Below are positions 20,213 through 35,885 of a DNA stretch of 50,562 nucleotides, piece after piece (positions within the stretch are counted from its first letter, which is position 1; each line of letters begins with the position of its first letter). The stretch is from positions 1 through 50,562 of the forward strand of contig JADGOZ010000070.1 in the NCBI GenBank assembly GCA_017882705.1. Reading direction: 5' to 3'. The translations under genes were made by a program, and so were the position numbers. The stretch is from Candidatus Nanopelagicales bacterium (lineage in GTDB: Bacteria; Actinomycetota; Actinomycetes; S36-B12; CAIYMF01). The notes beneath the pieces were generated by a model. That model was not told the origin of the DNA. It saw only the letters and a program-made list of their open reading frames with translations, and did no database searches.

Positions 20213-20244
20213 CTGCAACGGGCCGGCTCCGGTCGCTCCGGGCG

Positions 20245-20250
20245 TACTGT
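20245..20250 (+). promoter_or_regulatory. -10 box TACTGT of a probable leaderless gene (SGNH hydrolase)
   Basis: TACTGT, six bases, then ATG 20257; no ribosome site in between. Confidence 0.5.
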
Positions 20251-20256
20251 CGCGGG

Positions 20257-21324: not shown

Positions 21325-21360
21325 CCGTCGACGGACCACCTGGAGCGCGGGACTCCGGCG

Positions 21361-21447
21361 TCAGTACCCGTTCAGCATCTGCCTCGCCGCGACGATGCGC
21401 TGGACCTGGTTGGTGCCCTCGTAGATCTGGGTGATCTGCGTGGCGAT
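21361..21447 (-). pseudogene. Orphan 3' end of an acyl-CoA dehydrogenase gene
   Basis: On the minus strand the frame reads TQITQIYEGTNQVQRIVAAR then QMLNGY and stop. It is the catalytic-Glu end of an acyl-CoA dehydrogenase (QIYEGTNQVQR). Nothing of the rest of the gene precedes it: upstream it reads ADRAVIAGQRIA and then the 19-bp repeat. The intact gene at 34716-35885 has the same DNA over 59 bases but ends QLLAKY. It is either the old chromosomal end displaced by insertion or a remnant of a duplicated gene. Confidence 0.75.
21379..21437. repeat. 59-bp direct repeat, left copy (candidate att site)
   Basis: It begins CTGCCTCGCCGCGACGATGC and is identical over 59 bases to 34734-34792. Identity stops sharply on both sides, which suits a crossover region better than slow decay of a duplicated gene. 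Confidence 0.8.
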
Positions 21448-21474
21448 TCGCTGACCTGCGATGACGGCGCGGTC

Positions 21475-21493
21475 GGCACACAACTGACACACA
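21475..21493. repeat. 19-bp direct repeat, left copy
   Basis: GGCACACAACTGACACACA, also present once at 34596-34614 in the same orientation. Both copies lie near the ends of the nitrate block. Confidence 0.7.
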
Positions 21494-21740
21494 ACGATGC
21501 GCGCACGTGCCGATCCCTGCCGTTCAGGCGGACTTCGTCGTGCTCACCCGACCGCCGTCGACGCCGCCGCGTTCCTGCCTCTCGTCACTGTCGAAGGTGC
21601 GTCAACCCGGGCGTGCACGCGCTTCCCGAGCCCGAGCGCTGCCGCGCGCAAGCCCCAGCACCGAGGTGACGGGTGTCAGCGCTGCGACGAGTCCGTCCGC
21701 GGCGCACCTCCCGAACTGGCTGTGCTGACGTGGTGCGGCG

Positions 21741-22073
21741 CTATGCGCTGGCGACAACTGTGAGGAGCACCGCGCAGTCGGTCAGCGCCTCCAGCGCGTG
21801 ACGCCCCGGAGGGATGACGGCGTAAGAGCCCGGTCCGCCGTCCCACGTCTGCTCTGCGGAGGCCAGCCTGACGCTCCCGCGCAGGACCTGAAGGGTGGCC
21901 TCGCCCGGGTTCTCGTGCTCGTCGAGGCTTCGCCCCACGGTCAGCGCCATGAGCGTCTGGCGCAGCCGGTGACCGGTCCCGCCGTAGATCGTGCGGCTGC
22001 TGCGGCCGCTCGACGAGATCGCCGCAGCCTTGATGTGCTCGTCAGCCAGTTCGGTGAGTGATTCATGCTCCAT
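21741..22073 (-). CDS. Cupin-domain protein
   Basis: 110 residues, ATG 22073 with a GCAGGAAG ribosome site. Single cupin barrel: VGRSLDEHENPGEATLQVLRGSVRL (47-71) is motif 1, with one clear His-Glu pair and a Pro-Gly turn, and GGPGSYAVIPPGRHALEALTDCAVLL is motif 2. It probably binds a metal or small molecule, perhaps as a sensor or quencher. It follows narI by 44 bases in the same direction, so it is likely the last gene of the nitrate reductase operon. Its role there is unknown. Confidence 0.8.
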   Translation of the reverse strand: MEHESLTELADEHIKAAAISSSGRSSRTIYGGTGHRLRQTLMALTVGRSLDEHENPGEATLQVLRGSVRLASAEQTWDGGPGSYAVIPPGRHALEALTDCAVLLTVVASA

Positions 22074-22117
22074 GTGCTTCCTGCTTTCCTGACGGCGTGC
22101 GTCACGGTGGGCGGCGA

Positions 22118-22840
22118 TCAGCTCCCGATCTTCTCCCAGCCGCGACGCGGGGCCCGAGCCGAGCCATGCGCGTCACGGCTTCGGTAGACGATGTAGGGAC
22201 GGGCGAGATAGCCGACCGGAGCGCTGAAGACGTGGACGAGACGGGTGAACGGCCACAGCGCGAAGAGGCCCATCGCGAGCAGCGCGTGGATCTGGAAGGA
22301 CAGCGGAGCCGACTGCATGAGCGCTGCGTCGGGCTGGAACCAGAACACGCTGCGGAACCAGACCGCGACGTCCGCGCGGTAGTCGTGCCCGCCACCGAGC
22401 AACTGGACCACGAGCGAGTTGTACATGCCCATCGCGATGACCGCCCCGAGCATCACGTACATGGCCTTGTCCATGCGGGTCGTCACCCGGAAGACCGACG
22501 GGGTGGAGCGCCGGCGGTAGATCAGCAGCAGGAGGCCGACGACAGTCATGAGGCCGAAGACGCTTCCTGTGGTCACGGCCATGAGGTGGTAGCCCTCCTC
22601 GGAGAGCCCGAGCCTGGTGGTCCAGGTCTCGGGGACGACGAGGCCCACGATGTGGCCGAGCAGGACGCCGAGGATGCCGAAGTGGAACAGCGGGCTGCCC
22701 CAGGCGAGCAGCCTGTTCTCGTACATCTGCGATGACCGCGACGTCCAGCCGAACTTGTCGTAGCGGTAGCGCCAGAAGAGTCCCACGATGAAGCAGGTGA
22801 GTGCGGCGTAGGGAAGCACCACCCAGACGAACGAGGTCAT
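22118..22840 (-). CDS. narI: Respiratory nitrate reductase gamma subunit (cytochrome b)
   Basis: 240 residues. ATG 22840 overlaps the narJ stop as ATGA; the longer upstream frame runs through narJ and is rejected. Five membrane helices: VVLPYAALTCFIVGLFWRYRYDKFGWTSRSSQ, PLFHFGILGVLLGHIVGLVVPE with two heme-ligand His, a third with GLMTVVGLLLLIYRR, a fourth with MYVMLGAVIAMGMYNSL, and a last FQIHALLAMGLFALWPFTRLVHVFSAP with two further His. It takes electrons from menaquinol and passes them through two b hemes to narH. The length matches the family. Confidence 0.95.
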   Translation of the reverse strand: MTSFVWVVLPYAALTCFIVGLFWRYRYDKFGWTSRSSQMYENRLLAWGSPLFHFGILGVLLGHIVGLVVPETWTTRLGLSEEGYHLMAVTTGSVFGLMTVVGLLLLIYRRRSTPSVFRVTTRMDKAMYVMLGAVIAMGMYNSLVVQLLGGGHDYRADVAVWFRSVFWFQPDAALMQSAPLSFQIHALLAMGLFALWPFTRLVHVFSAPVGYLARPYIVYRSRDAHGSARAPRRGWEKIGS

Positions 22841-23475
22841 GAGCGCACCTTCAGGGAGTCGACCGAGAAGAAGGGCTCGAGCCCGACGGCTTCGGCGGGC
22901 GGCCCCTCGCTGGCCAGGGTCAGCGCGGCGGAACGCACCTCCGCGGACGGCGCCGGAAGGCTGGCCTCGAGCGCTCGCACGACGTCGGCGTAGGCGGAAC
23001 GCATGTCGTCCAACGACTCTCGCAGCACGTGGATGCCGGACTGGTGCTCGAGCAGGAGGGCGAGCGCCATGTCCTCGTGCCCGACCGCGGCGAGCTCGAG
23101 GACCACGGGGAGGAAGTCCGGGAGCTCCCCGCCGTCGACGGAGAACCCGCGCTGGCGGAACGCGTCCTGGAACCGCCAGAGCGCCATGCCACGCCGACGC
23201 GTGTCGCCGTTGAGGTAGTACGTCAGGTAGAGGCAGTTGCGGCGCTTGAGGTCGAACGTCGCGACGTATTCCTGCTGCAGGTCGAGGAGCCGGGTCGCGG
23301 AGACGTGCTCCAGGAACCGTGACAGGGGCGCGCCACTCGCTGCTGGGAGGTCGGCGAGCAGCGGCGACAGGTTCACCACGAGGGCGTCGAGCTCGTCGTC
23401 CGGGTACTGCAGCAGCCCCGATGCCGCCGCGAACACGATCCGCCGCTGGGTGGCATCTGCGGTGCTCAGCCTCAT
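22837..23475 (-). CDS. narJ: Nitrate reductase molybdenum cofactor assembly chaperone
   Basis: 212 residues from ATG 23475, whose first base is also the last base of the narH stop (TGATG). The all-helical TorD/NarJ fold shows in LLQYPDDELDALVVNLSPLL, the motif FDLKRRNCLYLTYYLNGDTRRRG (about 83-105), typical of NarJ, and ELPDFLPVVLELAA. It holds NarG during insertion of the Mo-bis-MGD cofactor and Fe-S clusters. The coupling to narH and narI keeps production in step. Confidence 0.93.
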   Translation of the reverse strand: MRLSTADATQRRIVFAAASGLLQYPDDELDALVVNLSPLLADLPAASGAPLSRFLEHVSATRLLDLQQEYVATFDLKRRNCLYLTYYLNGDTRRRGMALWRFQDAFRQRGFSVDGGELPDFLPVVLELAAVGHEDMALALLLEHQSGIHVLRESLDDMRSAYADVVRALEASLPAPSAEVRSAALTLASEGPPAEAVGLEPFFSVDSLKVRS

Positions 23476-25151
23476 CACTCCTCCTCCGTCGGTGGCTCGT
23501 CCTGTTCCGCGGACCGGCGCGGCGGGAACATCCCGGGCGGTGCCTCGCCACCGGACCACGTCAGCAGGTCGACAGCACCCCGGGACTCCGGGAGGTCGTC
23601 GTAGCGGTCGGCCTCCGCCCGCTGCTTGGTGAGCTGGAACGTCTCGACGGACGCCGGTGTGCCCGACGCCTCGCCGAACACGCCCATGCCGCCCATGCCG
23701 GGTCCGCCGTCGAAGTCGAGGCTGCAGCCGGCGATCTCGTCGAGCGCCCGGCCCGCCTCTACGTGGGCGGCGGGGATGACATACCTGTCCTCGTACTTCG
23801 CGATCGCGAGGAGCCGGTAGAGCTCCTCGATCGTCTGCCCGGTCATGCCGACCGCGGCCGCGATCGACTCGTCGCGCTCGTCGCCGAGATTGATGCGGCG
23901 CATGTAGGACCGCATCGCGGCAAGGATGCGCAGGCTGTTCTCGACGGGAGCGGGATCACCCGCGGTGAACACCTCGGCGAGGTACTCCACCGGGATCCGC
24001 AGCTGGTCGATCGCGGCGAAGAGGGTGTCCTTGTCCTCGCCGTCGGCCCCTGTCGAGCTCACTGCGTCGACGACAGGCGACAGCGGTGGGATGTACCAGA
24101 CCATCGGCATCGTGCGGTACTCCGGGTGCAGCGGGAGCGCAATGCGATAGCGGTTGGTGAGCGCGTAGACCGGTGACTTCTGGGCCGCCTCGATCCAGTC
24201 CTCGGCGATGCCCTCGGCCCGCGCGGCAGCGATCACCGTCGGGTCGTCGGGGTCGAGGATGACCGAGCGCTGCGCCTCGAGCAGGTCGTGTTCGTCCTCG
24301 ACCGATGCGGCCGCGAGGACGGCGTCGGCGTCGTAGAGGAACAGCCCGATGTAGCGCAGGCGACCGACGCAGGTCTCGGCGCACACGGTCGGCAGACCGG
24401 CCTCGACGCGCGGGTAGCAGAAGGTGCACTTCTCGGCCTTGCCTGTGCGGTGGTTGAAGTAGACCTTCTTGTAGGGGCAGCCGCTCACGCACATGCGCCA
24501 GCCACGGCAGCCGTCCTGGTCGACGAGCACGATGCCGTCCTCGGCCCGCTTGTAAATCGCCCCGGACGGGCAGCTCGCGACGCACGCCGGGTTGAGGCAG
24601 TGCTCGCAGATCCGCGGCAGGTGGAACATAAAGGTCTTCTCGAACTCGAGCTTCACGAGGTCGCCGAGCTTCTTCACGATCGGGTCCTGCGGCGCGTACT
24701 CCGGGGCGCCACCGAGGTCGTCGTCCCAGTTCGCCGACCAGCGGATCTGCATCGGCAGTCCGGTGATCAGCGACTTGGGACGGGCGACCGGTACGTCGTC
24801 GCCGGCCGGGGCGTTCAGCAGTGTGTCGTACTCGTAGGTCCAGGGCTCGTAGTAGTCCTTGAGCCCGGGGAGCTTGGGGTTGCTGAAGATCCGGGACAGG
24901 CGCTTGATTCGACCGCCGGCGCGGAGCTTGAGCTTGCCGCGCGAGGTGCGGACCCAGCCGCCGCCCCACTTCTCCTGGTCCTCGTGCAGCCGCGGGTAGC
25001 CGAGACCGGGGCGGGTCTCGACGTTGTTGAACCAGACGTACTCGACGCCGGTGCGGTTGGTCCACGCCTGCTTGCACGTGACCGAGCAGGTGTGGCACCC
25101 GATGCACTTGTCGAGGTTCATCACCATGCCCATCTGGGCCATGACGCGCAT
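23475..25151 (-). CDS. narH: Respiratory nitrate reductase beta subunit (Fe-S)
   Basis: 558 residues from ATG 25151, sharing one base with the narG stop (TGATG). All four ligand groups are present: CIGCHTCSVTC (16-26), CEHCLNPACVASCP, CRGWRMCVSGCP, where Trp replaces a Cys as in the [3Fe-4S] cluster of known NarH, and CTFCYPRVEAGLPTVCAETC. The rest (KPKSLITGLPMQIRW-type region, PVYALTNRY, HPEYRTMPMVWYIPPLSPV) is family-typical, with an acidic C-terminal tail. It wires NarI hemes to NarG. Confidence 0.96.
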   Translation of the reverse strand: MRVMAQMGMVMNLDKCIGCHTCSVTCKQAWTNRTGVEYVWFNNVETRPGLGYPRLHEDQEKWGGGWVRTSRGKLKLRAGGRIKRLSRIFSNPKLPGLKDYYEPWTYEYDTLLNAPAGDDVPVARPKSLITGLPMQIRWSANWDDDLGGAPEYAPQDPIVKKLGDLVKLEFEKTFMFHLPRICEHCLNPACVASCPSGAIYKRAEDGIVLVDQDGCRGWRMCVSGCPYKKVYFNHRTGKAEKCTFCYPRVEAGLPTVCAETCVGRLRYIGLFLYDADAVLAAASVEDEHDLLEAQRSVILDPDDPTVIAAARAEGIAEDWIEAAQKSPVYALTNRYRIALPLHPEYRTMPMVWYIPPLSPVVDAVSSTGADGEDKDTLFAAIDQLRIPVEYLAEVFTAGDPAPVENSLRILAAMRSYMRRINLGDERDESIAAAVGMTGQTIEELYRLLAIAKYEDRYVIPAAHVEAGRALDEIAGCSLDFDGGPGMGGMGVFGEASGTPASVETFQLTKQRAEADRYDDLPESRGAVDLLTWSGGEAPPGMFPPRRSAEQDEPPTEEE

Positions 25152-28100
25152 CAGTACTCCACATCCTGGGACCGGCGACGGATCACGGTGATCTCGTCGC
25201 GTTGGTTGCCGGTCGGCCCGTAGTAGTTGAAGCCGTACGACAGCTGGGCGTACCCGCCGATGAGGTGGCTGGGCTTGATCAGCAGCCGGGTCAGCGCGTT
25301 GTGGATGCCGCCGCGCTTGCCGCTGATCTCGGACTTGGGCACGTCGATGGTGCGGTCCTTCGCGTGGTACATGTAGACCGTGCCCTGCGGCATGCGGTGC
25401 GTGACGACGGCGCGGGCGACGACGACGCCGTTGCGGTTGAACGCCTCGATCCAGTCGTTGTCCTTCACGCCGATCGTGGCGGCGTCCTCCTGGCTCATCC
25501 AGAGGTCGGGGCCGCCTCGGCTCAGGCTCAGCATGAACAGGTTGTCCTGGTACTCCGAGTGGATCGACCACTTCGAGTGCGGGGTCAGGTAGCGCACCGT
25601 CACCTCGAGGCGACCGTCGTCACCGATCCCCTGCGAGCCGAAGATGCGGTGCATGTTCAACGGCGGGCGGTAGACCGGCAGCTGTTCGCCGAGCTCGGTG
25701 ATCCAGTCGTGGTCGAGGAAGAAGTGCTGTCGCCCGGTGAGGGTGTGCCACGGCTTGAGCCGCTCGACGTTGATCGTGAAGGGTGAGTAGCGGCGTCCGC
25801 CGTGCTCGCTGCCGGACCACTCGTGCGAGGTGATGACCGCCTGCGGTCGTGACTGGGTGTCGGCGAAGGTGATCTGGTGACCCTCGTGATCGCTCGCGAG
25901 GTCGGCGAGCTTCTGCCCCGTGCGGGCCTCGAGGAACCTGAAGCCAGCCGTGGCAACGTGGCCGTTCGTCGTTCCGGACAGCGCCAGGATCGTCTCGCAC
26001 GCCTGGGTCGCCGTCGCGAGGTTCGGGCGGCCGTCGGCGAGACCGCCACGCACGGTGCCGTTGACTCGCTTGAGGTAGTCGACCGCAGCGGCCGGCTTGA
26101 GGGTCACGGCCTTGACCGTGGTGCCGAGCCGGTCGATGACAGGACCGAGCGCGACCATCTGGTCGGCGACCGCGCCGAAGTCCCGCTCGACGACGGCGAT
26201 GTTCGGCATCGTCCGTCCTGGGACGGGCTCGCACTCGCCGTACTTCCAGTCGAGCACCTTGCCACCGGGCTGCGAGGTCTCGCCGGGGGTGTCGTGACCG
26301 AGCGGAGTCACGACGACGTCCTTGCGCACGCCGAGGTGCTTGGCCGCCATCGGGCTGAAGACCTTCGACATCGCGACGAACGTGTCGTAGTCGCTCCGGG
26401 TCTCCCAGGGCGGGTCGATCGCGGCGTTGAACGCGTGGACGAACGGGTGCATGTCGGTCGAGGACAGGTCGTACTTCTCGTACCACGTGGCGGCTGGCAG
26501 CAGGACGTCGGAGAACAGCCCGGTCGAGGTCATCCGGAAGTCCAGCGACACGAGCATGTCGAGCTTGCCCTCGGGCGCCTCGTCGCGCCAGACGACCTCG
26601 GTCGGGCGCATGCCCTCGACAGTCTGGTCAGCGCGCACGGCACCGTCGCTGCCGAGAAGGTGGCGCAGGAAGTACTCGTTGCCCTTGCCCGAGGAGCCGA
26701 GCAGGTTCGCGCGCCACACGGTGAGTACGCGCGGGAAGTTCTCCTCGGCGTCGGGGTCCTCGCAGGAGAACCGCAGGTCGCCCTTGACGAGCTGGTCGAC
26801 GACGTACGCCGGCGCCTCGACGCCGGCGGCCGCGGCGTCGTCGGCGAGGTCGAGGGGGTTGCGGTCGAACGTCGGGAAGGACGGGGTCCACCCGAGGCGC
26901 ACGGACTGCGCGAGCGTGTCGGCGAGCGCCTTGCCCTTGAACAGGCCCGTGCCGAGCGGCGTGGACAGGGCGTCCGCCGCGAAGCCGTCGTACCGCCACT
27001 GGTCGGTCGCGAGGTACCAGAACGAGGTGCCGGCCATCTGGCGCGGGGGCCGCACCCAGTCGAGCGCGAACGCGAGCTGTGCCCAGCCGGTGAACGGCCG
27101 CACCTTCTCCTGCCCGACGTAGTGGGCCCAGCCTCCGCCGTTGACGCCCTGGCAGCCGGTGAGGGTCGTCAGCGCGAGCATGGCGCGGTAGATCTGGTCG
27201 GAGTGGAACCAGTGGTTGGTGCCCGCGCCCATCGCGATCATCGAACGACCACCGGACTTCTCGGCGTTGTCGGCGAACTCGCGCGCGATCCGCTCGACGG
27301 CCTCGGCGGGGACCGAGGTGATCTCCTCCTGCCACGCGGGGGTGTACGGCTCCGGGTCGTCGTACCCGGTGGGCCACTCGCCGGGCAGGCCAGGGCGACT
27401 GACTCCGTACTGTGCGAGCAGCAGGTCGAACACCGTCGTGACGAGCCGTCCCGCCACCGTCCGGACCGGGACCCCACGCCGCAGCACGCTGCCGCCCTCG
27501 TTCTCGGCCTGTCCGGTGTCGAAGCGCGGCATGTCGACCGCGACCGACTCGACGCCGTCGTCGTGCAGCGTCAGGACCGGGTCGACGCCCTCGAGGTCGA
27601 GGTTCCATTTGCCCATGCCGCTGTCGGTGTAGCGGTCACCCATCGTGCCGTTGGGCACGACGGGCTCCCCCGTCGCGGAGTCGAGCAGCACCGTGCGCCA
27701 CGCGTCGCCCTCACCGTCGTGACCGAGGTCGGAGGCGGTGAGGAAGCGGTCGGGGACGTAGACGCCGTCGCGCTCGCGCAGGGTGATGAGGAACGGCAGG
27801 TCGGTGTAGCTCTTGACGTAGGACTGGAACCGCTCGACCTGGCGGTCGACGAAGAACTCCTTGAGCACCACGTGGCCCATGGCCATCGCGAGGGCGCCGT
27901 CGGTGCCGGGGTGCGGGGCGAGCCACTCGTCGGCGAACTTCACGTTGTCGGCGTAGTCGGGGCTGACCGCGATGACCTTCTGGCCCTTGTAGCGGGCCTC
28001 GGTCATGAAGTGCGCGTCGGGCGTGCGGGTGACGGGGATATTGGAGCCCCACATCATCAGGTAGGACGCGTTCCACCAGTCCGCGGACTCCGGGACGTCG

Positions 28101-28846
28101 GTCTGGTCGCCGAACACCTGCGGCGAGGCGATCGGGAGGTCGGCGTACCAGTCGTAGAAGGAGAGCATCGTGCCGCCGATGAGGCTGGTGTAGCGGGCAC
28201 CCGCGGCATGGCTGGCCATCGACATCGCGGGGATCGGTGAGAAGCCGGCGACGCGGTCGGGGCCCCACTTCTTGATGGTGTGCACCTGGGCTGCGGCGAC
28301 CATCTCGAGCGCCTCGTCCCAGCGGGTGCGGACCAGTCCTCCCTTGCCGCGTGCCTTCATGTAGACCTTGCGGCGCTCGGGGTCGCCGACGATGTCGGCC
28401 CACGCGTCGACCGGGTCGCCGAGGCGAGCCTTGGCCTCGCGGTACATCTCCAGGAGCACGCCGCGGACGTAGGGATAGCGGACCCGGGTGGGCGAGTAGG
28501 TGTACCAGGAGAACGCCGCACCACGCGGGCATCCGCGCGGCTCGTACTCCGGGGAGTCGGCACCGACCGAGGGATAGTCGGTCTGCTGGTTCTCCCAGGT
28601 GATGATCCCGTCCTTGACGTAGACCTTCCACGAGCACGACCCGGTGCAGTTGACGCCGTGGGTGGACCGCACGATGCGGTCGTGCGACCAGCGGTCGCGG
28701 TAGAAGACGTCGGCGTCGCGCCCGCCCTCGTGGGTGATGGTGCGCAGGTCGTCGGAGACCGCGTTCTTCTGCAGGAGCCTGCGCGCTTTGAGGATGAGCT
28801 CGACGACGTCGCCGTCGGTTCCGGTGCGCGGTGCCTGGGTGGTCAC
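25151..28846 (-). CDS. narG: Respiratory nitrate reductase alpha subunit (Mo-bis-MGD)
   Basis: 1231 residues, GTG 28846 with a perfect AGGAGG six bases upstream. The FS0 cluster ligands are H63, C67, C71 and C106 (HGVNCTGSCSWK and GCPRGA). The Mo region SFYDWYADLPIASPQVFGDQTDVPESADWWN carries the Asp ligand of NarG. Later blocks GTNHWFHSDQIYRAML and NCQGVNGGGWAHYVGQEKVRP are family-typical. It reduces nitrate to nitrite on the inner membrane face, bound to NarHI. Typical length (about 1220 to 1250). It follows the regulator by 23 bases, so they share a transcript. Confidence 0.97.
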   Translation of the reverse strand: MTTQAPRTGTDGDVVELILKARRLLQKNAVSDDLRTITHEGGRDADVFYRDRWSHDRIVRSTHGVNCTGSCSWKVYVKDGIITWENQQTDYPSVGADSPEYEPRGCPRGAAFSWYTYSPTRVRYPYVRGVLLEMYREAKARLGDPVDAWADIVGDPERRKVYMKARGKGGLVRTRWDEALEMVAAAQVHTIKKWGPDRVAGFSPIPAMSMASHAAGARYTSLIGGTMLSFYDWYADLPIASPQVFGDQTDVPESADWWNASYLMMWGSNIPVTRTPDAHFMTEARYKGQKVIAVSPDYADNVKFADEWLAPHPGTDGALAMAMGHVVLKEFFVDRQVERFQSYVKSYTDLPFLITLRERDGVYVPDRFLTASDLGHDGEGDAWRTVLLDSATGEPVVPNGTMGDRYTDSGMGKWNLDLEGVDPVLTLHDDGVESVAVDMPRFDTGQAENEGGSVLRRGVPVRTVAGRLVTTVFDLLLAQYGVSRPGLPGEWPTGYDDPEPYTPAWQEEITSVPAEAVERIAREFADNAEKSGGRSMIAMGAGTNHWFHSDQIYRAMLALTTLTGCQGVNGGGWAHYVGQEKVRPFTGWAQLAFALDWVRPPRQMAGTSFWYLATDQWRYDGFAADALSTPLGTGLFKGKALADTLAQSVRLGWTPSFPTFDRNPLDLADDAAAAGVEAPAYVVDQLVKGDLRFSCEDPDAEENFPRVLTVWRANLLGSSGKGNEYFLRHLLGSDGAVRADQTVEGMRPTEVVWRDEAPEGKLDMLVSLDFRMTSTGLFSDVLLPAATWYEKYDLSSTDMHPFVHAFNAAIDPPWETRSDYDTFVAMSKVFSPMAAKHLGVRKDVVVTPLGHDTPGETSQPGGKVLDWKYGECEPVPGRTMPNIAVVERDFGAVADQMVALGPVIDRLGTTVKAVTLKPAAAVDYLKRVNGTVRGGLADGRPNLATATQACETILALSGTTNGHVATAGFRFLEARTGQKLADLASDHEGHQITFADTQSRPQAVITSHEWSGSEHGGRRYSPFTINVERLKPWHTLTGRQHFFLDHDWITELGEQLPVYRPPLNMHRIFGSQGIGDDGRLEVTVRYLTPHSKWSIHSEYQDNLFMLSLSRGGPDLWMSQEDAATIGVKDNDWIEAFNRNGVVVARAVVTHRMPQGTVYMYHAKDRTIDVPKSEISGKRGGIHNALTRLLIKPSHLIGGYAQLSYGFNYYGPTGNQRDEITVIRRRSQDVEY

Positions 28847-28869
28847 GTGGTCCTCCTGCGGGCGGATGG

Positions 28870-29649
28870 TCAGGTGCGGGGTCGTGGTGAGCGAGCCCGT
28901 GGTGCCACCGGCTTCTTGCCGAGGACGGGCAGCGGGATCGCCTCTTCGGGGGTGGTCGAGTCCACCCTCGTGAGCGTGATGCGACAGGTGAGGGGGGCGT
29001 CGGTCACGAAGGGCTCGAGCGCCGTGGCTCGCAACGGGCTGTCGAGTCGCTCGAGGGTGCGACGCACCATGCCGAGGTGCACGCCGCACACGACGGACGG
29101 GTTGGTCCGCGCGACGTCCGCGAACGGGCAGTGCCGCAGCATCACGGTGCCGTGCTCGAGATCCATCTCGGGTGCGAACCCGAGCTCGTCGAGCAGTGAC
29201 TCGAGCTCCGCGGCCGCTACCTCCGGAGTCGTCGGCCGGGCCGGCCACGCATGGTCGGCCAACGCCTCGATCCAACCCTCGCCGGCGGCGAGGGCCGCGG
29301 CCGCCGGATCGTCCGTGGCAGCGAGGCCGCGGGCCAGGACGGTCGCGAGGGCCCGGTAGTCGTCTTCGCCACGGCCACGCGGTTCGTCGGCCGGAGGGCG
29401 GCGGGTCGCGGTGTACAGGGCACGAGGACGGCCGGGCTCGGCTCGACGCTCGCTCACCTGCTCCACGAGCCCGACCTCCACGAGCTGCTCGAGATGCAGC
29501 CGCGCGGTGTTGGGGTGGAGCCCGAGCGCCTCGGCCGCCTCGAGGACGGTCACCGGCGCCGTGGCCCGGGTCAGGTAGTCGAGGAGCTCGACACGGCGTG
29601 GGGACGCGAGCACCTGGCGGGTGCGCAGCATCGACTCGTCGGTGACCAT
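28870..29649 (-). CDS. HTH transcriptional regulator with conserved Cys (SufR-like), probable nitrate operon regulator
   Basis: 259 residues, ATG 29649. Winged helix: LASPRRVELLDYLTRATAPVTVLEAAEALGLHPNTARLHLEQLVEVGLVEQ (about 14-64) with a basic wing (SERRAEPGRPRALY). The C-terminal part has MLRHCPFADVARTNPSVVCGVHLGMV and TDAPLTCRIT: three Cys placed as in SufR-type ArsR/DeoR-like regulators, where they bind an Fe-S cluster. So a redox or NO/oxygen-responsive regulator is likely; this is inference. It heads the leftward nar operon and is divergent to narK, across a 75-bp region with an inverted repeat. Confidence 0.82.
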   Translation of the reverse strand: MVTDESMLRTRQVLASPRRVELLDYLTRATAPVTVLEAAEALGLHPNTARLHLEQLVEVGLVEQVSERRAEPGRPRALYTATRRPPADEPRGRGEDDYRALATVLARGLAATDDPAAAALAAGEGWIEALADHAWPARPTTPEVAAAELESLLDELGFAPEMDLEHGTVMLRHCPFADVARTNPSVVCGVHLGMVRRTLERLDSPLRATALEPFVTDAPLTCRITLTRVDSTTPEEAIPLPVLGKKPVAPRARSPRPRT

Positions 29650-29724
29650 GGTTGCAATATTCCCTATCTGAGGTGTAAAAACAATCCTGACAGGGAAAAC
29701 CTACCGCCGAGAGCCGGTGACACG
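29650..29724. promoter_or_regulatory. Divergent nar promoter region with operator-like inverted repeat
   Basis: 75 bases, markedly AT-richer than the neighbourhood. TTCCCTATC (29660-29668) and GACAGGGAA (29689-29697) form an inverted repeat, eight of nine positions matching, with 20 bases between. AATATT (29656-29661), six bases before the regulator ATG, is a possible -10 for a leaderless regulator message. A good site for autoregulation by the adjacent HTH protein. Confidence 0.55.
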
Positions 29725-30960
29725 ATGGTGTCCTCGCACGAAACCCCGACGTCCCCCCGGCTCGACACGCCTGCCGTGGCGACGTCGAACGCGATCCCCA
29801 GGGGCGCAGCACTCCAGCTGCTGCTGGCCACCGTCGGGTTCGGCGTCAACTTCTGGGCCTGGGCGCTCATGGGCCCGCTCGGCCCGGCGTACAAGACACT
29901 GCTCGGTCTCACGCCGTTCCAGCAGTCGCTCGTGGTGGCCGTCCCGGTCATCGTCGGATCGCTCGGCCGCATCCCGATCGGCGGTCTCACCGACAAGCTC
30001 GGCGCGCGGGTCATGTTCCCCGCGGTCAGCTTCCTGACGATCCTGCCGGTGCTCTACGTCGGCCACCTCGCGACCAGCTTCGTCACCCTCCTCATCGGCG
30101 GGTTCTTCCTCGGCCTCGGCGGCACGGCGTTCGCCGTCGGCGTCCCCTTCGTCAACGCCTGGTTCCCCCCGGCGCGCCGCGGGTTCGCGCTCGGCATCTT
30201 CGGCGTCGGCATGGGCGGCACCGCGATCTCGGCGTTCACCACCGTGAAGCTCGCGACGTCGCACTCCGCGTCGTTCCCGTTCGACGTCGTCGCGGTGGTG
30301 CTCGCGATCTACGGCGCCCTCGCGCTCCTCCTGCTCCGTGACGCCGCGGGTCGCACTGCGAGCAGCGGATCGTTCTGGGCCCGCATCGCCACCGCGATGA
30401 GGCTCAAGGTCACGATCCAGCTCTCGGTCCTGTACGCCGTGGGGTTCGGCGGGTTCGTCGCCTTCAGCGTCTACCTGCCCACGTACCTCAAGAACGCGTA
30501 CCACCTCACGGCCGACGACGCGTCCTCACGGACCGCGGGCTTCGTCGTTCTCGCCGTCGTCGCGCGCCCCGTCGGCGGCTGGCTGTCGGACCGGTTCCAC
30601 CCGGTGCCCGTCCTCACCGTGTGCTTCACCGTCGTGTTCGCCCTCGCGGCCGTCGCCGCCCTGCAGCTCACGCTCCTCCCCGGCGCCACTCTCGCCTTCC
30701 TCGGCATGGCCGCCGCCCTCGGCGCCGCGGCCGGTGGCGTGTTCGCCCTCGTCGCACGAGTGGCTCCCGCCGACAAGGTCGGTTCGGTCACGGGTGTCGT
30801 CGGCGCCGCGGGCGGGCTCGGCGGCTTCATCCCGCCGCTGATCATGGGCTACTTCTACGGCCTCAACGGCACCTACACGATCGGCTTCGTCCTGCTCGCA
30901 CTGCTGGCCGGCGCGGCGGCCCTCTACACCTGGACGGCGATGCGCACGGCCAACGCCTGA
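29725..30960 (+). CDS. narK: Nitrate/nitrite transporter (MFS, NarK family)
   Basis: 411 residues from ATG 29725; the longer frame runs into the regulator gene and is rejected. Twelve hydrophobic helices. NarK signature: helix 1 LLLATVGFGVNFWAWALMGPLG, GLTPFQQSLVVAVPVIVGSLGRIPIGGLTDKLGARVMF (cytosolic loop with R and D), GTAFAVGVPFVNAWFPPARRGFALGIFGVGMGGTA (nitrate signature Gly-rich), and GAAGGLGGFIPPLIMGYFYG for the second one. It exchanges nitrate for nitrite across the membrane. First gene of the rightward operon. Confidence 0.93.
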   Translation: MVSSHETPTSPRLDTPAVATSNAIPRGAALQLLLATVGFGVNFWAWALMGPLGPAYKTLLGLTPFQQSLVVAVPVIVGSLGRIPIGGLTDKLGARVMFPAVSFLTILPVLYVGHLATSFVTLLIGGFFLGLGGTAFAVGVPFVNAWFPPARRGFALGIFGVGMGGTAISAFTTVKLATSHSASFPFDVVAVVLAIYGALALLLLRDAAGRTASSGSFWARIATAMRLKVTIQLSVLYAVGFGGFVAFSVYLPTYLKNAYHLTADDASSRTAGFVVLAVVARPVGGWLSDRFHPVPVLTVCFTVVFALAAVAALQLTLLPGATLAFLGMAAALGAAAGGVFALVARVAPADKVGSVTGVVGAAGGLGGFIPPLIMGYFYGLNGTYTIGFVLLALLAGAAALYTWTAMRTANA

Positions 30961-31047
30961 CCCGCACGCGGCCTCCCGCCCGTGAGCGGCCGCCGGCACC
31001 ACCAGGTCGAACGTGACCGAACCCAGATCCGACACTCAGGAGCATCC

Positions 31048-31368
31048 GTGGACATCAGCATCACCACCCCAGACGACGTCGCGACCGAGGCACCGACCGG
31101 CGGCTGCGGGGGGAACTGCACCTGCGGTGCGGCGACCGACGAGACCCCGGCACTCGACGTCCGGGCGATCCCGCACTCGATCCGTCACGCCTCGGTGCTC
31201 GGCGCCGTCAGCGGCGTCGCCGTGGGCACCTCGCTCGTCCTCATCGCCCCCCACGACCCCCTCCCGCTGCTGGGCGAGATCGACGAGCGCGAGCCGGGGG
31301 CGTTCGACGTCACCTACGACGAGCGCGGCCCTGACGCATGGCACGTGCGCCTGACCCGTGTGAGCTGA
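31048..31368 (+). CDS. DUF2249 domain protein
   Basis: 106 residues from GTG 31048, with AGGAG six bases upstream; an in-frame ATG at 30982 has no site. The N-terminal 35 residues carry a Cys-Gly cluster (GGCGGNCTCGAA) that could ligate metal. The rest, DVRAIPHSIRHASVLGAVSGVAVGTSLVLIAPHDPLPLLGEIDEREPGAFDVTY, is the DUF2249 domain, which often occurs with hemerythrin or nitrate/NO genes. Its function is not known; a link to NO or metal handling is inferred from context. Confidence 0.82.
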   Translation: MDISITTPDDVATEAPTGGCGGNCTCGAATDETPALDVRAIPHSIRHASVLGAVSGVAVGTSLVLIAPHDPLPLLGEIDEREPGAFDVTYDERGPDAWHVRLTRVS

Positions 31369-31371
31369 CCC

Positions 31372-31839
31372 GTGTGCTCCTACTGCGGGTGCCGCGCGCT
31401 CGCCTCGATCGCGCAGCTCACCGCCGAGCACGAGCAGATCGTCAACCTCATGGGCGACGTGCGACGCGCGGTGGGGTCCGTCGATGCGACGGTGCTCGAG
31501 ACCGCGACCAGCATGCTGACCGCTGCACTTGCCCGGCACACGACCGGCGAGGAGCGCTCGCTGTTCACCGAGCTTCGTGACGACCCGGAGCTCGCCGATC
31601 ACGTCAACGAGCTGTGCGCCGAGCATGTCGACCTGGACACCCGCCTTGGTCGCCTCCAGCCCGGAGGCACAGCCGCCGTCCACGACCTCGAGGGCCTACT
31701 GCGTCGCCACATCGACAAGGAGGAGAACGGGCTGTTCCCCGCCGCCGCCATCAGCCTCGACGGCGCCGCCTGGGACCGGGTCGACGTACGGCTGGCGGAC
31801 GACGCTGCCCCGCACCTGTCGGGAGCGGAGTCACGATGA
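31372..31839 (+). CDS. Hemerythrin-domain protein
   Basis: 155 residues from GTG 31372, three bases after the previous stop. N-terminal CSYCGC (2-7) precedes a four-helix hemerythrin fold with the iron ligands in order: TAEHEQI, HTTGEERSLF, CAEHVDL and RRHIDKEENGLFP (H-HxxxE-H-HxxxE). Such proteins bind O2 or NO at a di-iron site or repair Fe-S centres. In this operon, NO made from nitrite is the likely threat. Its stop overlaps moeA as ATGA. Confidence 0.9.
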   Translation: MCSYCGCRALASIAQLTAEHEQIVNLMGDVRRAVGSVDATVLETATSMLTAALARHTTGEERSLFTELRDDPELADHVNELCAEHVDLDTRLGRLQPGGTAAVHDLEGLLRRHIDKEENGLFPAAAISLDGAAWDRVDVRLADDAAPHLSGAESR

Positions 31840-33035
31840 ACCCGCCGATCACCGCCACCCCACGCCCGGTGACCACGGGCCTGGTCGCGCCCGGCTTCGA
31901 CACGGCGCGCGAGGCGGCGCACGCATCGGGCGAGCCCCTGGGCACCGAGACCGTTCCGCTGCGGCTCGGACATCGCCGCGTCCTGGCCGCGGACGTCCAC
32001 GCAGCCACCGATCTGCCACCGTTCGCGGCGTCGGCGATGGACGGATGGGCCGTGAGCGGAACCGGCCCCTGGATCGTCGCCGGCGCCGTCCTGGCCGGGG
32101 TGCTACCGAGCGCGACGCTGTCCCGCGGCCAGGCGACGGCGATCGCGACCGGGGCCGCAGTCCCCTTCGGGACCACCGCCGTCGTGCGGCGCGAGGACGC
32201 AACGATCGCAGGGGCGCTGCTCACGGCCGGCGTCGAGGCAGGGCGCCACATCCGGCCGGCCGGCGAGGAGGCCGCCCGCGGCACACTGCTCCTGACGGCA
32301 GGGACCGTCCTGGGGCCGGCGCACCTCGGTGTCGCCGCCGCTGCCGGCGCCGACGTGCTGGAGGTCGTACGCCGCCCCGTGGCACGCCTGCTCGTGCTCG
32401 GCGACGAGTTGCTCGACCACGGCATCCCCCACGCCGGGTGGATCCGCGACTCGCTCGGACCTCAGGTCCCGGCGTGGCTCGCGCGGCTCGACGTCGACTG
32501 CGTCGGCGTCGAGCGCGTCACCGACACGCTCGACGCGCACATCGAGGCCATCGAGGCAGTCGCCGACGCCGAGCTCGTCGTCACCACGGGAGGAACCGCC
32601 GCCGGCCCCGCCGACCACCTGCACCGGGCGATCGGAGCGCTCGGGGGCACGCTGGTCGTCGACTCCGTCTCCCTCCGGCCGGGGCACCCGATGCTGCTCG
32701 CGCGCCTGCCCGGCCGACGCTGGCTGCTCGGTCTCCCCGGCAACCCGCAGTCCGCCGTGGCGGCACTCCTCACCCTGGGCGCTCCCCTGGTGGCTGCACT
32801 CCTGGGGACGCCGCTACCGCAGCTCGGACTGACCACGAGCGATGTCGCGCTGCTGGCACCGCCGAGCGCGACCCGTCTGGTCCTCGCGACCCTGGAAGCA
32901 GGGTTGGCCGTTCCCACGGACCATCACGGGTCCGGGATGCTCCGCGGCCTCGCCGTCGCCGACGGCTACGCCGTCGTCCCACCCGGCGGAGCACTGCCGG
33001 GCGATCTGCTGCGCTGGCTCCCCCTGCCGACATGA
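31836..33035 (+). CDS. moeA: Molybdopterin molybdenumtransferase (MoeA)
   Basis: 399 residues from ATG 31836. Order of motifs: LPPFAASAMDGWAV (the MoeA SAMDG loop), IATGAAVPFGTTAVVRRED, RRPVARLLVLGDELLDHG, the MPT-binding TTGGTAAGPADHLHRAI, and LPGRRWLLGLPGNPQSAVAALLTL with the LPGNP turn. The C-terminal domain is complete. It inserts molybdate into adenylated molybdopterin, supplying NarG. I see no moaA-E or mobA here, so those steps must be encoded elsewhere. Overlaps both neighbours by four bases. Confidence 0.9.
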   Translation: MNPPITATPRPVTTGLVAPGFDTAREAAHASGEPLGTETVPLRLGHRRVLAADVHAATDLPPFAASAMDGWAVSGTGPWIVAGAVLAGVLPSATLSRGQATAIATGAAVPFGTTAVVRREDATIAGALLTAGVEAGRHIRPAGEEAARGTLLLTAGTVLGPAHLGVAAAAGADVLEVVRRPVARLLVLGDELLDHGIPHAGWIRDSLGPQVPAWLARLDVDCVGVERVTDTLDAHIEAIEAVADAELVVTTGGTAAGPADHLHRAIGALGGTLVVDSVSLRPGHPMLLARLPGRRWLLGLPGNPQSAVAALLTLGAPLVAALLGTPLPQLGLTTSDVALLAPPSATRLVLATLEAGLAVPTDHHGSGMLRGLAVADGYAVVPPGGALPGDLLRWLPLPT

Positions 33036-33241
33036 CCGACCCTGCGAGCGGCTCGGCGCTGCAGCAGCTCCGACGCTGGGAGCAGGCCGGTGGGCTCTGG
33101 CGTGTCGTGGCGCGCGGGGCGGACTTCGTCGACATCGCCCTCCTCACCTGCTCAGCGGACGAGGAGATGGGCCGCCTGCACACGAACGACCCTGCAGTGC
33201 TCGCGCTCGTCCGCGAGGTTCCGCTCGCCTCCTCGGAGTAG
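33032..33241 (+). CDS. Small conserved protein between moeA and the membrane protein
   Basis: 69 residues from ATG 33032, overlapping the moeA stop (ATGA). LQQLRRWEQAGGLWRVVARGADFVDIALLTCSADEEMGRLHTNDPAVLALV has a helix and beta strands and one Cys. I recall similar small proteins in other actinobacteria near nitrogen-metabolism genes but know no name or function. The tight overlaps on both sides support that it is real and belongs to the operon. Confidence 0.65.
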   Translation: MTDPASGSALQQLRRWEQAGGLWRVVARGADFVDIALLTCSADEEMGRLHTNDPAVLALVREVPLASSE

Positions 33242-33247
33242 GCGACG

Positions 33248-34453
33248 ATGACCCGATCGACCTGGCACAGCGTCGTGGGCACCGTCGGCGCCGCCTGGCT
33301 GGCGGCGCTCACGGTCGTCAGCGTCCGCGCGCTGACGGTCGGCGTGGACTCGTGGCTCCCCATCCACCTGCTGCTTCTCGGAGCGGTCAGCAACGCCATC
33401 CTGATCTGGAGCACGTACTTCACCGAAGCGCTCCTGCGGCTGCGTGAGACCAGGAGCCACACGACTGAGGCGATCCGCCTCGGGGGCTTCAACACCGGTG
33501 CGGTCACCGTCGTGTGGGGCATGACCACGGACCAGTCGCGGGTGGTCACCGTGGGGGCATTGCTTGCGGTCGTAGCGATCGCCTGGCACACGCTCGGCCT
33601 TCTGCGACGCATGCGGCGCTCGCTGCCCTCGCGCTTTGGGGCGACCGTCCGTTACTACGTCGGCGCGGGCGCCCTGCTCCCCCTCGGCATCGGCCTCGGC
33701 GTGATCATGTCGGCGGGCACCCTCACCGAGTCCGTGCACGCACGGGTCGCCCTGGCCCACGTGACGCTCAACGTCCTGGGCTGGATGGGCCTCACCGTCG
33801 TGGGGACGCTCATCACCCTGTGGCCGACCATGCTCCACACCCGAATCCCCGACGGAGCGGAGCGCACCGGGCGCCGGGCACTTCTGATCCTGCTCCTCAG
33901 CCTCCTCGTGGCGGCCGGCTCCGCCCTGGCGGACCTGCGCGGCCTGACCGCGATCGGGCTCCTCGGCTACGCCGCAGGTCTCGTCTACGCCGGCCGGCCC
34001 CTGCTGCAGGAGGCACGGGAGCGGGCACCGCAGACGTACGCCACGTGGTCGGTGGGGTCGGGCGTCCTCTGGCTGGTCGCGTCCGTGGTCGCGCTCGCCC
34101 TCGTGGTCGCCAGCGCCCCCAGCTGGATCGACGCCGCCACGACCGCCGACCGGCTGGCGGCACCGCTGCTCGTCGGCTTCGCCGCGCAGACGCTGCTCGG
34201 CGCCCTCAGCTACCTCGTCCCCGTGGTGCTCGGCGGCGGACCTGTGGTCGCGCGCGCCACCCACGCCGCCCTCGACACCGGTGCGCGCACCCGGCTGATT
34301 GCGATCAACGTCGGCGTCCTCGCTGTGGCCGTCAGCGACGCGACGGACGTCCAGCCCTGGATGCTGCTGCCACTCTGCGCGCTCGCGGCATTCCTTCCCC
34401 TGGTGGGACTCGCGGTGCTCGCCAAGCACCGGTCACTTGCTGCTGCCCGCTGA
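33248..34453 (+). CDS. NnrS-like polytopic membrane protein (nitrite-reductase membrane-domain type)
   Basis: 401 residues with about twelve hydrophobic helices and no soluble domain. IHLLLLGAVSNAILIWSTYFTEALL and ALAHVTLNVLGWMGLTVVGTLITLWPTMLHTRIP closely resemble the membrane part of large actinobacterial copper oxidases/NirK fusions and the NnrS family. It carries His in helices (HLLLLG, AHVTLN, HTRIP) that could bind heme or copper. Here it stands alone with no cupredoxin. NnrS relieves NO stress in denitrifiers. A role against nitrite or NO is inferred. Six bases after the small protein gene, and last in the operon. Confidence 0.75.
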   Translation: MTRSTWHSVVGTVGAAWLAALTVVSVRALTVGVDSWLPIHLLLLGAVSNAILIWSTYFTEALLRLRETRSHTTEAIRLGGFNTGAVTVVWGMTTDQSRVVTVGALLAVVAIAWHTLGLLRRMRRSLPSRFGATVRYYVGAGALLPLGIGLGVIMSAGTLTESVHARVALAHVTLNVLGWMGLTVVGTLITLWPTMLHTRIPDGAERTGRRALLILLLSLLVAAGSALADLRGLTAIGLLGYAAGLVYAGRPLLQEARERAPQTYATWSVGSGVLWLVASVVALALVVASAPSWIDAATTADRLAAPLLVGFAAQTLLGALSYLVPVVLGGGPVVARATHAALDTGARTRLIAINVGVLAVAVSDATDVQPWMLLPLCALAAFLPLVGLAVLAKHRSLAAAR

Positions 34454-34464
34454 CGCGGTCGTCG

Positions 34465-34479
34465 TGCCCTGAGAGGGCG
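34465..34479 (+). terminator. Weak hairpin after the narK operon
   Basis: GCCCT (34466-34470) and AGGGC (34474-34478) with a GAG loop, twelve bases after the last stop. The stem is only five to six pairs and no T run follows, so it is a weak candidate. Confidence 0.3.
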
Positions 34480-34595
34480 AACGGAATGGGATCCGGCCAC
34501 GGACGGGCAGCGTGTGTGTCTCTCGCAGCTTCCGGAGCCGCGGCCGTAGACGCAATCACCTCGGTGAGGTGCGGGTGCGGGCGGGGACGCGGGCT

Positions 34596-34614
34596 GGCAC
34601 ACAACTGACACACA
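34596..34614. repeat. 19-bp direct repeat, right copy
   Basis: Same 19 bases as 21475-21493. It lies 101 bases to the left of the intact acyl-CoA dehydrogenase end, in the 262-base gap that otherwise holds nothing I recognise. Confidence 0.7.
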
Positions 34615-34715
34615 GCGCGCTCTCCGGCGTGCCGGTCTGTGCCTGTCTCGCCCGGCCGAGTCGAGGCGCGACCCCCCAGCGATCGCTGCAGGCGCCTGAC
34701 CTGCGGCAACGGGCG

Positions 34716-35885
34716 TCAGTACTTCGCGAGCAGCTGCCTCGCCGCGACGATGCGCTGGACCTGGTTGGTGCCCTCGTAGATCTGGGTGATCTTGGCGTCG
34801 CGCATCATCCGCTCGACGGGGTAGTCCTTGACGTAGCCGTAGCCGCCGAGGACCTGCACGGCGTCGGTCGTGACCTCCATCGCGACGTCGGAGGCGAAGC
34901 ACTTCGCGGCGGCGCCGAAGAAGGTGAGATCGGCGTCCCCGCGCTCGCTCTTCGCGGCCGCCACGTAGACGAGCTGACGCGCGGCCTCAAGCTTGATGGC
35001 CATGTCGGCGAGCATGAACTGCAGGCCCTGGAACTCCGCGATCGCCTTGCCGAACTGCTTGCGCTCCTTGGCATACGCCGTGGCGAAGTCGAGGGCGCCC
35101 TGGGCGATCCCGACGGCCTGCGCGCCGATCGTGATGCGCGTGTGGTCCAGGGTCGCCATGGCTACGGCGAAGCCCGCACCCACGTCGCCGACGCGACGCG
35201 AGTCGGGGATGCGCACGTCGTCGAAGTAGAGCTCGCGCGTCGGCGAACCCTTGATGCCGAGCTTCTTCTCCAGGGCGCCGTAGGAGAACCCCTCGTCGCC
35301 GTCCTCGACGACGAACGCGGTGATGCCGCCGCGGGTGCGCTTGTCCGGGTCGGTGACGGCCATGACGGTGTAGAACTTCGAGACGCCCGCGTTGGTGATC
35401 CAGCGCTTCGCCCCGTTGAGCACCCACTCGTCGCCGTCGCGCACCGCGGTCGTGCGCATGCCGCCGGCGTCGCTGCCCGCCTCCGGCTCGGACAGGGCGT
35501 AGGAGAACATCGCCTCACCGCGGGCGAGCGCGGGGAGGTAGGCGGCCTTCACCTCGTCGGAGCCACCGACGAGCAGCGGCATCGAGCCGAGCTTGTTCAC
35601 CGCGGGGATGAGCGAGCTCGACGCGCAGGCGCGCGCGACCTCCTCGATCACGATGCACGCCGCGAGCGCGTCGCCCCCCTGGCCGCCGTACTCCTCCGGC
35701 ACGTGGATCGCGTGCAGGTCCGCCGCCACCAGGGCGTCGAGCGACTCCTGCGGGAACCGGCTCTCGTCGTCGACCTCCGCGGCGAACGGCGCGATCTTGT
35801 CGGCGGCGAGAGCCCGCACCGCCTCACGGAGCATGTCGTGCTCCTCCGACGGACGGAACAGGTCGAAGTCGGGATTGCCGGCCAT
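34716..35885 (-). CDS. Acyl-CoA dehydrogenase
   Basis: 389 residues from ATG 35885 with an upstream AAGGG-type site. FAD enzyme of the short/medium chain class: PEEYGGQGGDALAACIVIEEVARA, ALSEPEAGSDAGGMRTTAV (flavin/substrate loop), AKRWITNAGVSKFYTVMAVT, LGIKGSPTRELYFDDVRIP, RKQFGKAIAEFQGLQFMLADM and the catalytic base E371 in QIYEGTNQVQR. It forms the trans-2-enoyl-CoA in fatty or branched-chain acid breakdown. Its 3' end is the right 59-bp repeat, so its last residues (QLLAKY) may have come with the nitrate block. Confidence 0.95.
   Translation of the reverse strand: MAGNPDFDLFRPSEEHDMLREAVRALAADKIAPFAAEVDDESRFPQESLDALVAADLHAIHVPEEYGGQGGDALAACIVIEEVARACASSSLIPAVNKLGSMPLLVGGSDEVKAAYLPALARGEAMFSYALSEPEAGSDAGGMRTTAVRDGDEWVLNGAKRWITNAGVSKFYTVMAVTDPDKRTRGGITAFVVEDGDEGFSYGALEKKLGIKGSPTRELYFDDVRIPDSRRVGDVGAGFAVAMATLDHTRITIGAQAVGIAQGALDFATAYAKERKQFGKAIAEFQGLQFMLADMAIKLEAARQLVYVAAAKSERGDADLTFFGAAAKCFASDVAMEVTTDAVQVLGGYGYVKDYPVERMMRDAKITQIYEGTNQVQRIVAARQLLAKY
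34734..34792. repeat. 59-bp direct repeat, right copy (candidate att site)
   Basis: Identical to 21379-21437 and lies inside the acyl-CoA dehydrogenase gene, coding for the segment ending IVAARQ. The two copies enclose about 13.3 kb with the nitrate genes. Confidence 0.8.

Follow-up and report, generated by a model that had tools for sequence, protein, structure and literature searches.

A recombinase-free nitrate-respiration island between attachment-like sites at the 3' end of an acyl-CoA dehydrogenase gene in a Nanopelagicales actinobacterium, probably a decayed integrative element

The window analysed here is the whole 50,562-nucleotide stretch of contig JADGOZ010000070.1 from a Candidatus Nanopelagicales bacterium (assembly GCA_017882705.1). 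It corresponds to contig C131 of genome G000, a 3.56-Mb draft in 194 contigs with 90.89% completeness and 4.02% contamination. The window contains a nitrate-respiration (nar) cassette of about 13 kb that resembles a fragment left behind by a mobile element, because matched repeats of the integrase type bound it, yet no integrase was found inside. The cassette is probably a recombinase-free nitrate island flanked by attachment (att) sites, similar to a cis-mobilizable element (CIME), and a decayed integrative element. We estimate a probability of about 0.85 that the block entered by site-specific integration at the 3' end of an acyl-CoA dehydrogenase gene; given such an entry, decay of the element is rather likely. 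Integration at a gene's 3' end, first proposed in a reading of the letters alone (hereafter the sequence-only reading), is supported by repeats lying just inside both ends, a boundary of nearly the same place and geometry in genome G164, the absence of the block from this site in all eight relatives compared, and a conflict between NarG and PurK relationships.

Core repeats and putative arm-type sites at the ends of the block

Three pairs of exact repeats of at least 18 bp were found in the window. The longest is a 59-bp direct repeat whose copies, 21379-21437 and 34734-34792, are identical, as the sequence-only reading had claimed; they sit in an 81-nucleotide pair (21357-21437 and 34712-34792), the copies of which are 91% alike and take in the stop codon. 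The right copy forms the 3' end of an intact acyl-CoA dehydrogenase gene of 389 amino acids (aa), the protein of which ends in QLLAKY. The left copy belongs to an orphan end, QMLNGY, and the frame upstream of it does not carry the dehydrogenase gene on, again in agreement with the earlier description. The core codons encode KITQIYEG at the conserved dehydrogenase 3' end and contain the inverted repeat AGATC-N5-GATCT. A direct repeat of the gene end thus marks the far boundary while the target gene is intact, which is the arrangement sought for a tyrosine-integrase element at a gene 3' end. The other two pairs are a 19-bp repeat at 21475 and 34596 and a 20-bp repeat at 36260 and 36551; the latter falls within a multicopper oxidase gene.

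In the attL and attR sites of tyrosine integrases, a core lies at the gene end and arm sites lie on both inner sides, usually with asymmetric spacing between arm and core. The perfect 19-bp direct repeat GGCACACAACTGACACACA occurs just inside each end of the block, 37 bp from the left core on one side, and 97 bp from the right-hand gene end and 119 bp from the right 59-bp core on the other. At up to three mismatches, it has two matches in the window against a mean of 0.01 in window shuffles, and these two copies are the only ones in the whole 3.56-Mb draft, in which the reversed control gave none. Each copy consists of two tandem near-repeats of KGMCACACAAC (10-11 bp), and the motif can be written as GGCACAC-N3-TGACACAC. 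We take these repeats to be arm sites; by their layout, putative arm-type sites flank both cores on the inner side, and a description as core plus arms suits the repeat better than the 59 bp alone. The features at the two ends are as follows.

21357-21378, minus strand: orphan dehydrogenase tail (stop and QMLNGY end), lying outside the element; under the integration model, the gene's original end after displacement
21379-21437, minus strand: left core copy of the attachment-site repeat, 59 bp; the AGATC-N5-GATCT inverted repeat at 21423-21437 is the likely crossover core
21475-21493, plus strand: left putative arm-type site GGCACACAACTGACACACA, two tandem near-repeats
34596-34614, plus strand: right putative arm-type site GGCACACAACTGACACACA
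34712-34733, minus strand: dehydrogenase tail (QLLAKY and stop); brought by the element according to the integration model
34734-34792, minus strand: right core copy, 59 bp, within the dehydrogenase gene
34716-35885, minus strand: intact acyl-CoA dehydrogenase gene, the target gene

The inner repeats also bear on an alternative that the sequence-only reading had offered, namely that a tandem duplication of the dehydrogenase gene lost one copy down to an 81-bp 3' relic and that the nar genes merely lie between. Twelve dehydrogenase matches in the own genome and a degenerate 3' fragment at the syntenic locus of G005 fit such a history. However, homology would then be confined to the gene, with no further symmetric repeats, whereas a 19-bp pair is present inside both ends; the similar boundary in G164 and the NarG tree (see below) would also be left unexplained. 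We therefore consider a lost duplicate highly improbable. Moreover, neither of the observations that the sequence-only reading had named as telling against integration, a shared gene order with both repeats and concordant trees or a second, complete dehydrogenase gene at 21.4 kb, was made in the relatives examined.

Under the integration reading, an element with a tyrosine integrase and a nitrate-respiration module would have entered the chromosome by a crossover within the conserved 3' end of an acyl-CoA dehydrogenase gene. The dehydrogenase gene would have stayed intact because the incoming copy supplied its last codons and stop, and the old end would have been displaced 13.4 kb away. One att junction would comprise 21357-21437 and 21475-21493, and the other 34596-34614 and 34712-34792. 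The recombinase would later have been lost while both att sites and the cargo were kept, leaving a CIME-like island movable only with help.

A similar site in G164

The arms were sought in 166 genomes of the order at up to three mismatches, with the reversed pattern as control. On contig C253 of G164, BLAST matches the dehydrogenase 3' end at 489-555, and the arm-like sequence GGCACACGAGTGACACACG, with three mismatches, follows at 592-610. This sequence lies 36 bp beyond the dehydrogenase match and 39 bp beyond GATCT; the equivalent distance in the window is 37 bp. The order on the contig is an orphan gene end (KITQIYEGTNQVQRIVMARHLLSRNG, stop), the arm-like sequence and, about 420 bp further on, an open reading frame (ORF) of 291 aa (1034-1909). 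When coding strands are aligned, identity to true dehydrogenase genes starts at AGATC-ACCCA-GATCT in both elements, within about 6 bp. The N-terminal part of the ORF resembles Phage_integrase-family proteins of G061 and G129, with E values of 4.8e-6 and 7.1e-5 in pairwise comparison and 3.9e-4 and 6.7e-4 in the genome search. G164 thus combines a similar site with an integrase-like ORF, yet no complete relative was found there.

By our own arithmetic, about 0.002 coincidences of an arm and a dehydrogenase end within 120 bp are expected by chance in about 0.4 Gb, given that, outside G000, the arm matched 28 times and the dehydrogenase end 118 times, the latter count with at most five candidates scored per genome. 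When the combined core-plus-arm pattern was sought in a collection of 84,980 species, in which the own genome may be left out, a single contig matched, at the position of the site in G164:C253. The same pattern had no match in viral contigs.

Two further candidates were rejected. Among the 11 genomes of the genus, the only arm-like match elsewhere (two mismatches, G007:C131) has a two-component system on one side and an ABC transporter on the other and was attributed to chance. A weak match to the G164 ORF on G005:C71 (a frame of 76 aa interrupted by one stop, E 4.2e-5) proved on inspection to have no such site.

The proposed insertion site and its flanks in relatives

A clear counterpart of the dehydrogenase was found in seven of ten congeners: G007 (93% identity), G002 (89%), G009 (88%, over part of its length), G001 (86%), G003 (85%), G010 (82%) and G006 (65%). 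The best listed match in G005 reached 43%, and those in G004 and G008 were weaker (best E values 9.7e-74 and 1.7e-74). No nar-block DNA lies beside the dehydrogenase in any of eight relatives, these being G007, G002, G001, G003, G010, G009, G006 and G011, the last from another genus (E limit 1e-10; about 2 to 15 kb of downstream sequence). Outside the block, the gene at 14799-15974 is syntenic in G002, G003 and G007, and the gene at 42145-42579 is syntenic in G002, G003, G001, G010 and G009.

The synteny of both flanking genes in G002 and G003 would suit a block that spread by homologous recombination at conserved flanks, without a site-specific step. However, the block is at this site in none of the eight relatives, and exchange alone makes no core-plus-arm repeats; such a spread appears very unlikely. 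An artefact of metagenome assembly, in which a nar contig was fused with the dehydrogenase locus through a repeat common to both, has in its favour the sharing of the repeat and the state of the draft (194 contigs, 90.89% complete, 4.02% contamination). Nevertheless, a false join would hardly produce cores and arms that match at the two ends, and the window has genes syntenic in relatives on either side. This is the least probable of the explanations considered here.

Several observations concern the surroundings of the site. The syntenic locus of G005, the genome with the closest NarG, keeps only a decayed dehydrogenase 3' fragment (L108, G005:C60, 3685-3733), and the gene is otherwise gone. 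The contigs G106:C72 (L104, 1-1569) and G144:C104 (L105, at its start) break at the dehydrogenase 3' end. The dehydrogenase of G106 is followed by what we read as an aquaporin-like gene and an ArsR-like ORF, which are not present at the G144 contig start; this suggests a variable insertion site at the dehydrogenase 3' end in these genomes. In the window, a multicopper oxidase of 1731 aa with fibronectin type III repeats (36083-41278) adjoins the dehydrogenase, and at its place G002, G003, G009, G010 and G011 have an ORF that starts like what is presumably a UDP-glucose dehydrogenase. To the left of the orphan end, the stretch 16806-21373 carries an ORF that we read as MprF-like, an esterase and an SGNH hydrolase. 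Since this stretch has no DNA match in the stretches of the eight relatives, the left flank is itself variable.

NarG phylogeny and the search for a donor

The NarG of G000 is 93% identical to that of G005 and 87% to that of G184, a genome of the same class outside the order, whereas the full-length NarG proteins of G001, G002, G003 (two) and G010 are 75-76% identical to it. A tree was built from 20 chosen NarG proteins, with the fragments from G007 and G009 left out. It groups G000 with G005 and then G184 with 100/100 support, apart from nine other NarG rows of the family; G001, G002, G003 (twice), G010 and G016 form a clade of their own, and the order of neighbouring clades is not resolved. 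PurK, matched in all 11 genomes, gives another picture: identity is 87-89% for G009, G002, G007 and G003, 84% for G010, 82-83% for G005, 81% for G001, and 77-79% for G004, G008 and G006. As judged from these protein comparisons, the NarG tree conflicts with the PurK relationships. The dehydrogenase tree is weakly resolved and does not include G005.

G005 carries narK (81%), a helix-turn-helix (HTH) gene (66%), narG, narH, narJ and narI in the same order as the window; the other genes of the block were not found on this contig, which ends 277 bp past narI. Clear similarity in G184 is limited to narGHJI and the HTH gene, and its transporter is 31% identical. The plasmid collection holds no close donor, because the best listed identity was 72.0% among 330 records for NarG and 63.7% among 236 records for NarK. 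A search of viral contigs with NarG returned no match.

Gene content and the search for an integrase

Twelve genes lie between the cores.

21741-22073, minus strand: small cupin-domain protein, below the Pfam cut-off
22118-22840, minus strand: narI, nitrate reductase gamma subunit
22837-23475, minus strand: narJ, nitrate reductase assembly chaperone
23475-25151, minus strand: narH, nitrate reductase beta subunit
25151-28846, minus strand: narG, nitrate reductase alpha subunit
28870-29649, minus strand: ArsR/IclR-type HTH regulator
29725-30960, plus strand: NarK-like nitrate/nitrite transporter of the major facilitator superfamily, below the cut-off of the NCBIfam NarK family
31048-31368, plus strand: DUF2249 protein
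31372-31839, plus strand: hemerythrin-domain protein
31836-33035, plus strand: MoeA-like molybdenum cofactor protein
33032-33241, plus strand: 69-aa ORF with no family assigned; a relative adjoins moeA in G003:C32
33248-34453, plus strand: 401-aa protein, unmatched in Pfam and NCBIfam; relatives lie by both nar blocks of G003

NarG, NarH, NarJ and NarI score above their NCBIfam cut-offs. The statement in the sequence-only reading that all genes between the repeats serve nitrate use or its stress is too strong: the cupin, the 69-aa ORF and the 401-aa protein have no assigned function. An NnrS label for the 401-aa protein was dropped, as family searches did not support it.

Pfam searches found no integrase, transposase or relaxase among the 12 genes, and tblastn with four integrases returned nothing below E 0.65 for an integrase remnant inside the element; the earlier remark that no integrase is present therefore stands. 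The element thus appears to lack an integrase gene of its own, and none of the relaxase or conjugation genes that would define an integrative and conjugative element (ICE) or an integrative and mobilizable element (IME) was found among the 12 genes. Two features of a CIME are seen, in that attL and attR appear from the sequence layout to be kept, and no recombinase or transfer gene was found with them.

A variant of the integration reading is that the element is minimal rather than decayed and still moves, with an integrase borrowed from another element, either in trans or, once accreted in tandem at the same site, in cis. The cores are identical over 59 bp and the arms over 19 bp, and in G007, the nearest relative, 2 of the 59 positions are different in the dehydrogenase end; identity of the repeats may only mean a recent insertion. 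An integrase-like ORF adjoins the same kind of site in G164, and eight Phage_integrase matches (seven above the family cut-off) lie elsewhere in the own genome, with loci L006 and L007 resembling the integrases of G129, G061 and G003. However, none of these own-genome integrases adjoins the arms, and none resembles the G164 ORF at E <= 0.001. We consider continued mobility possible but less likely than decay.

Other nar blocks on or beside probable mobile elements

G003 has two nar blocks, on contigs C32 and C21. The C32 block (L160, L099, L161) lies in a 30-kb stretch between 45-bp direct repeats (7842-7886 and 37880-37924), which we take to be tRNA-3'-end-like and which are followed by hairpins presumed to be terminator-like. 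An ORF of the Phage_integrase family, a tyrosine integrase, runs over one of the repeats, and the stretch also encodes an HTH protein and a TrwC relaxase. ARAGORN called no tRNA in these repeat stretches or in the G061 stretches described below. The block resembles that of the window, from the same genus, in combining nar genes with MoeA, DUF2249, the 69-aa ORF and the 401-aa protein, with identities of 74% for NarG, 70% for MoeA and 62-64% for the relative of the 401-aa protein. It differs in its repeats, its integrase and relaxase, and its transporters, which are 26-27% identical to the window's NarK; relatives of the hemerythrin and the cupin were not found in it. G003:C32 supports the carriage of nar modules by integrative elements in the genus, at another kind of site. 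No such repeats of at least 20 bp were seen in the stretches read around the nar blocks of G005, G001, G002, G010, G007 and G003:C21, where the stretches are mostly short or cut by contig ends.

In G061, contig C17 (L156, 67-1098) carries a tyrosine integrase fragment, the arm-like TGGCACGCCAATGGCACG and a fragment that we presume to be a tRNA 3' end, directly beside a narK-HTH-narGHJI operon; the tRNA-like fragment recurs on two more contigs (C27:99-144 and C6:1-43). This operon was not counted as support, because the nar side lies outside that element's att site.

Discussion

Several observations weigh against the integration reading. Outside G000, the arm scan gave 28 matches in 25 other genomes against 18 for the reversed control, so most matches with three mismatches are due to chance, and the G164 arm match, which has three, is informative solely through its location. 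For the G164 ORF, Pfam gave a weak match to Arm-DNA-bind (E 0.086), no match to a catalytic domain was found, and a second end of the G164 element was not found. An integrase for these arms was not found in the own genome, a 90.89% complete draft. The sequence-only reading had predicted an empty site in which the SGNH hydrolase adjoins a dehydrogenase ending in QMLNGY; this exact site did not appear in 30 dehydrogenase loci or in the relatives' loci read. The QLLAKY tail now on the gene is closer to the QLLAKH of G007 and G002 than the displaced QMLNGY is; therefore, either the att donor would have been a near relative or the history is more complex, perhaps with a separate past for the left flank. 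The conserved dehydrogenase 3' end recurs among paralogues, and the AGATC-N5-GATCT inverted repeat alone is thus little proof. Two NarG fragments, one of 297 residues from G007 and one of 246 residues from G009, share 81% identity with the window's NarG, above the 75-76% of the full-length congeners. Finally, base composition does not mark the nar block as foreign, with a G+C content of 70.4% against 71.9% and 71.4% in the flanks.

The type of element is already known, and the acyl-CoA dehydrogenase attachment gene together with nitrate cargo is new; no paper on an island at an acyl-CoA dehydrogenase 3' end, with nitrate cargo or otherwise, was recognised in the literature searched, an open-access subset. 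The comparisons that follow draw on excerpts of the cited papers. A CIME is described as flanked by attL and attR with its integration and transfer genes lost (PMC5704250). The window island is alike in keeping att-like ends without such genes; it differs in that no adjoining ICE or IME was recognised in the window and in its cargo, a respiratory module. The ssrA islands of Dehalococcoides carry vinyl chloride respiration genes and use a serine recombinase at the tmRNA gene, and sixteen have an integration module (PMC3146451). They share with the window respiratory cargo at a gene 3' end and a direct repeat of the gene end, whereas the target in the window is a protein gene, its putative arms suggest a tyrosine integrase, and an integrase was not found.

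The nitrate respiration conjugative element (NCE) of Thermus thermophilus carries nar, nrc and dnr operons (PMC6282519). Both it and the window block place nar genes, NarK-type transporters and regulators on an element that is mobile or, in the case of the window, probably was; the window block differs in encoding MoeA, DUF2249 and hemerythrin proteins and in its lack of transfer genes. An acyl-CoA dehydrogenase gene also serves as attachment site at attB-21 of Mycobacterium abscessus, a prophage site in a FadE dehydrogenase that is used by a serine integrase and where the gene is probably inactivated (PMC9934374). In contrast, the window site is at the 3' end and the gene remains intact. In another source, dehydrogenases are cargo (PMC7466150).

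A bolder, and on present evidence unlikely, extension is that the island belongs to a family of small recombinase-free respiration cassettes. Such cassettes would consist of core, arms and a nitrate module only, borrow the integrases of other elements, hop between dehydrogenase 3' ends and so bring anaerobic respiration to further genera and orders of actinobacteria, most of them uncultured.

The anatomy of the island shows a route by which a complete nitrate-respiration trait can enter the chromosome and leave the target gene unharmed. Its attachment gene, an acyl-CoA dehydrogenase 3' end accompanied by a recognisable arm motif, provides a searchable signature. Together with the G003 element, it suggests that the nar modules of this genus are exchanged via integrative elements and are not solely inherited, and the patchy distribution of nitrate respiration in the group thereby becomes directly testable.

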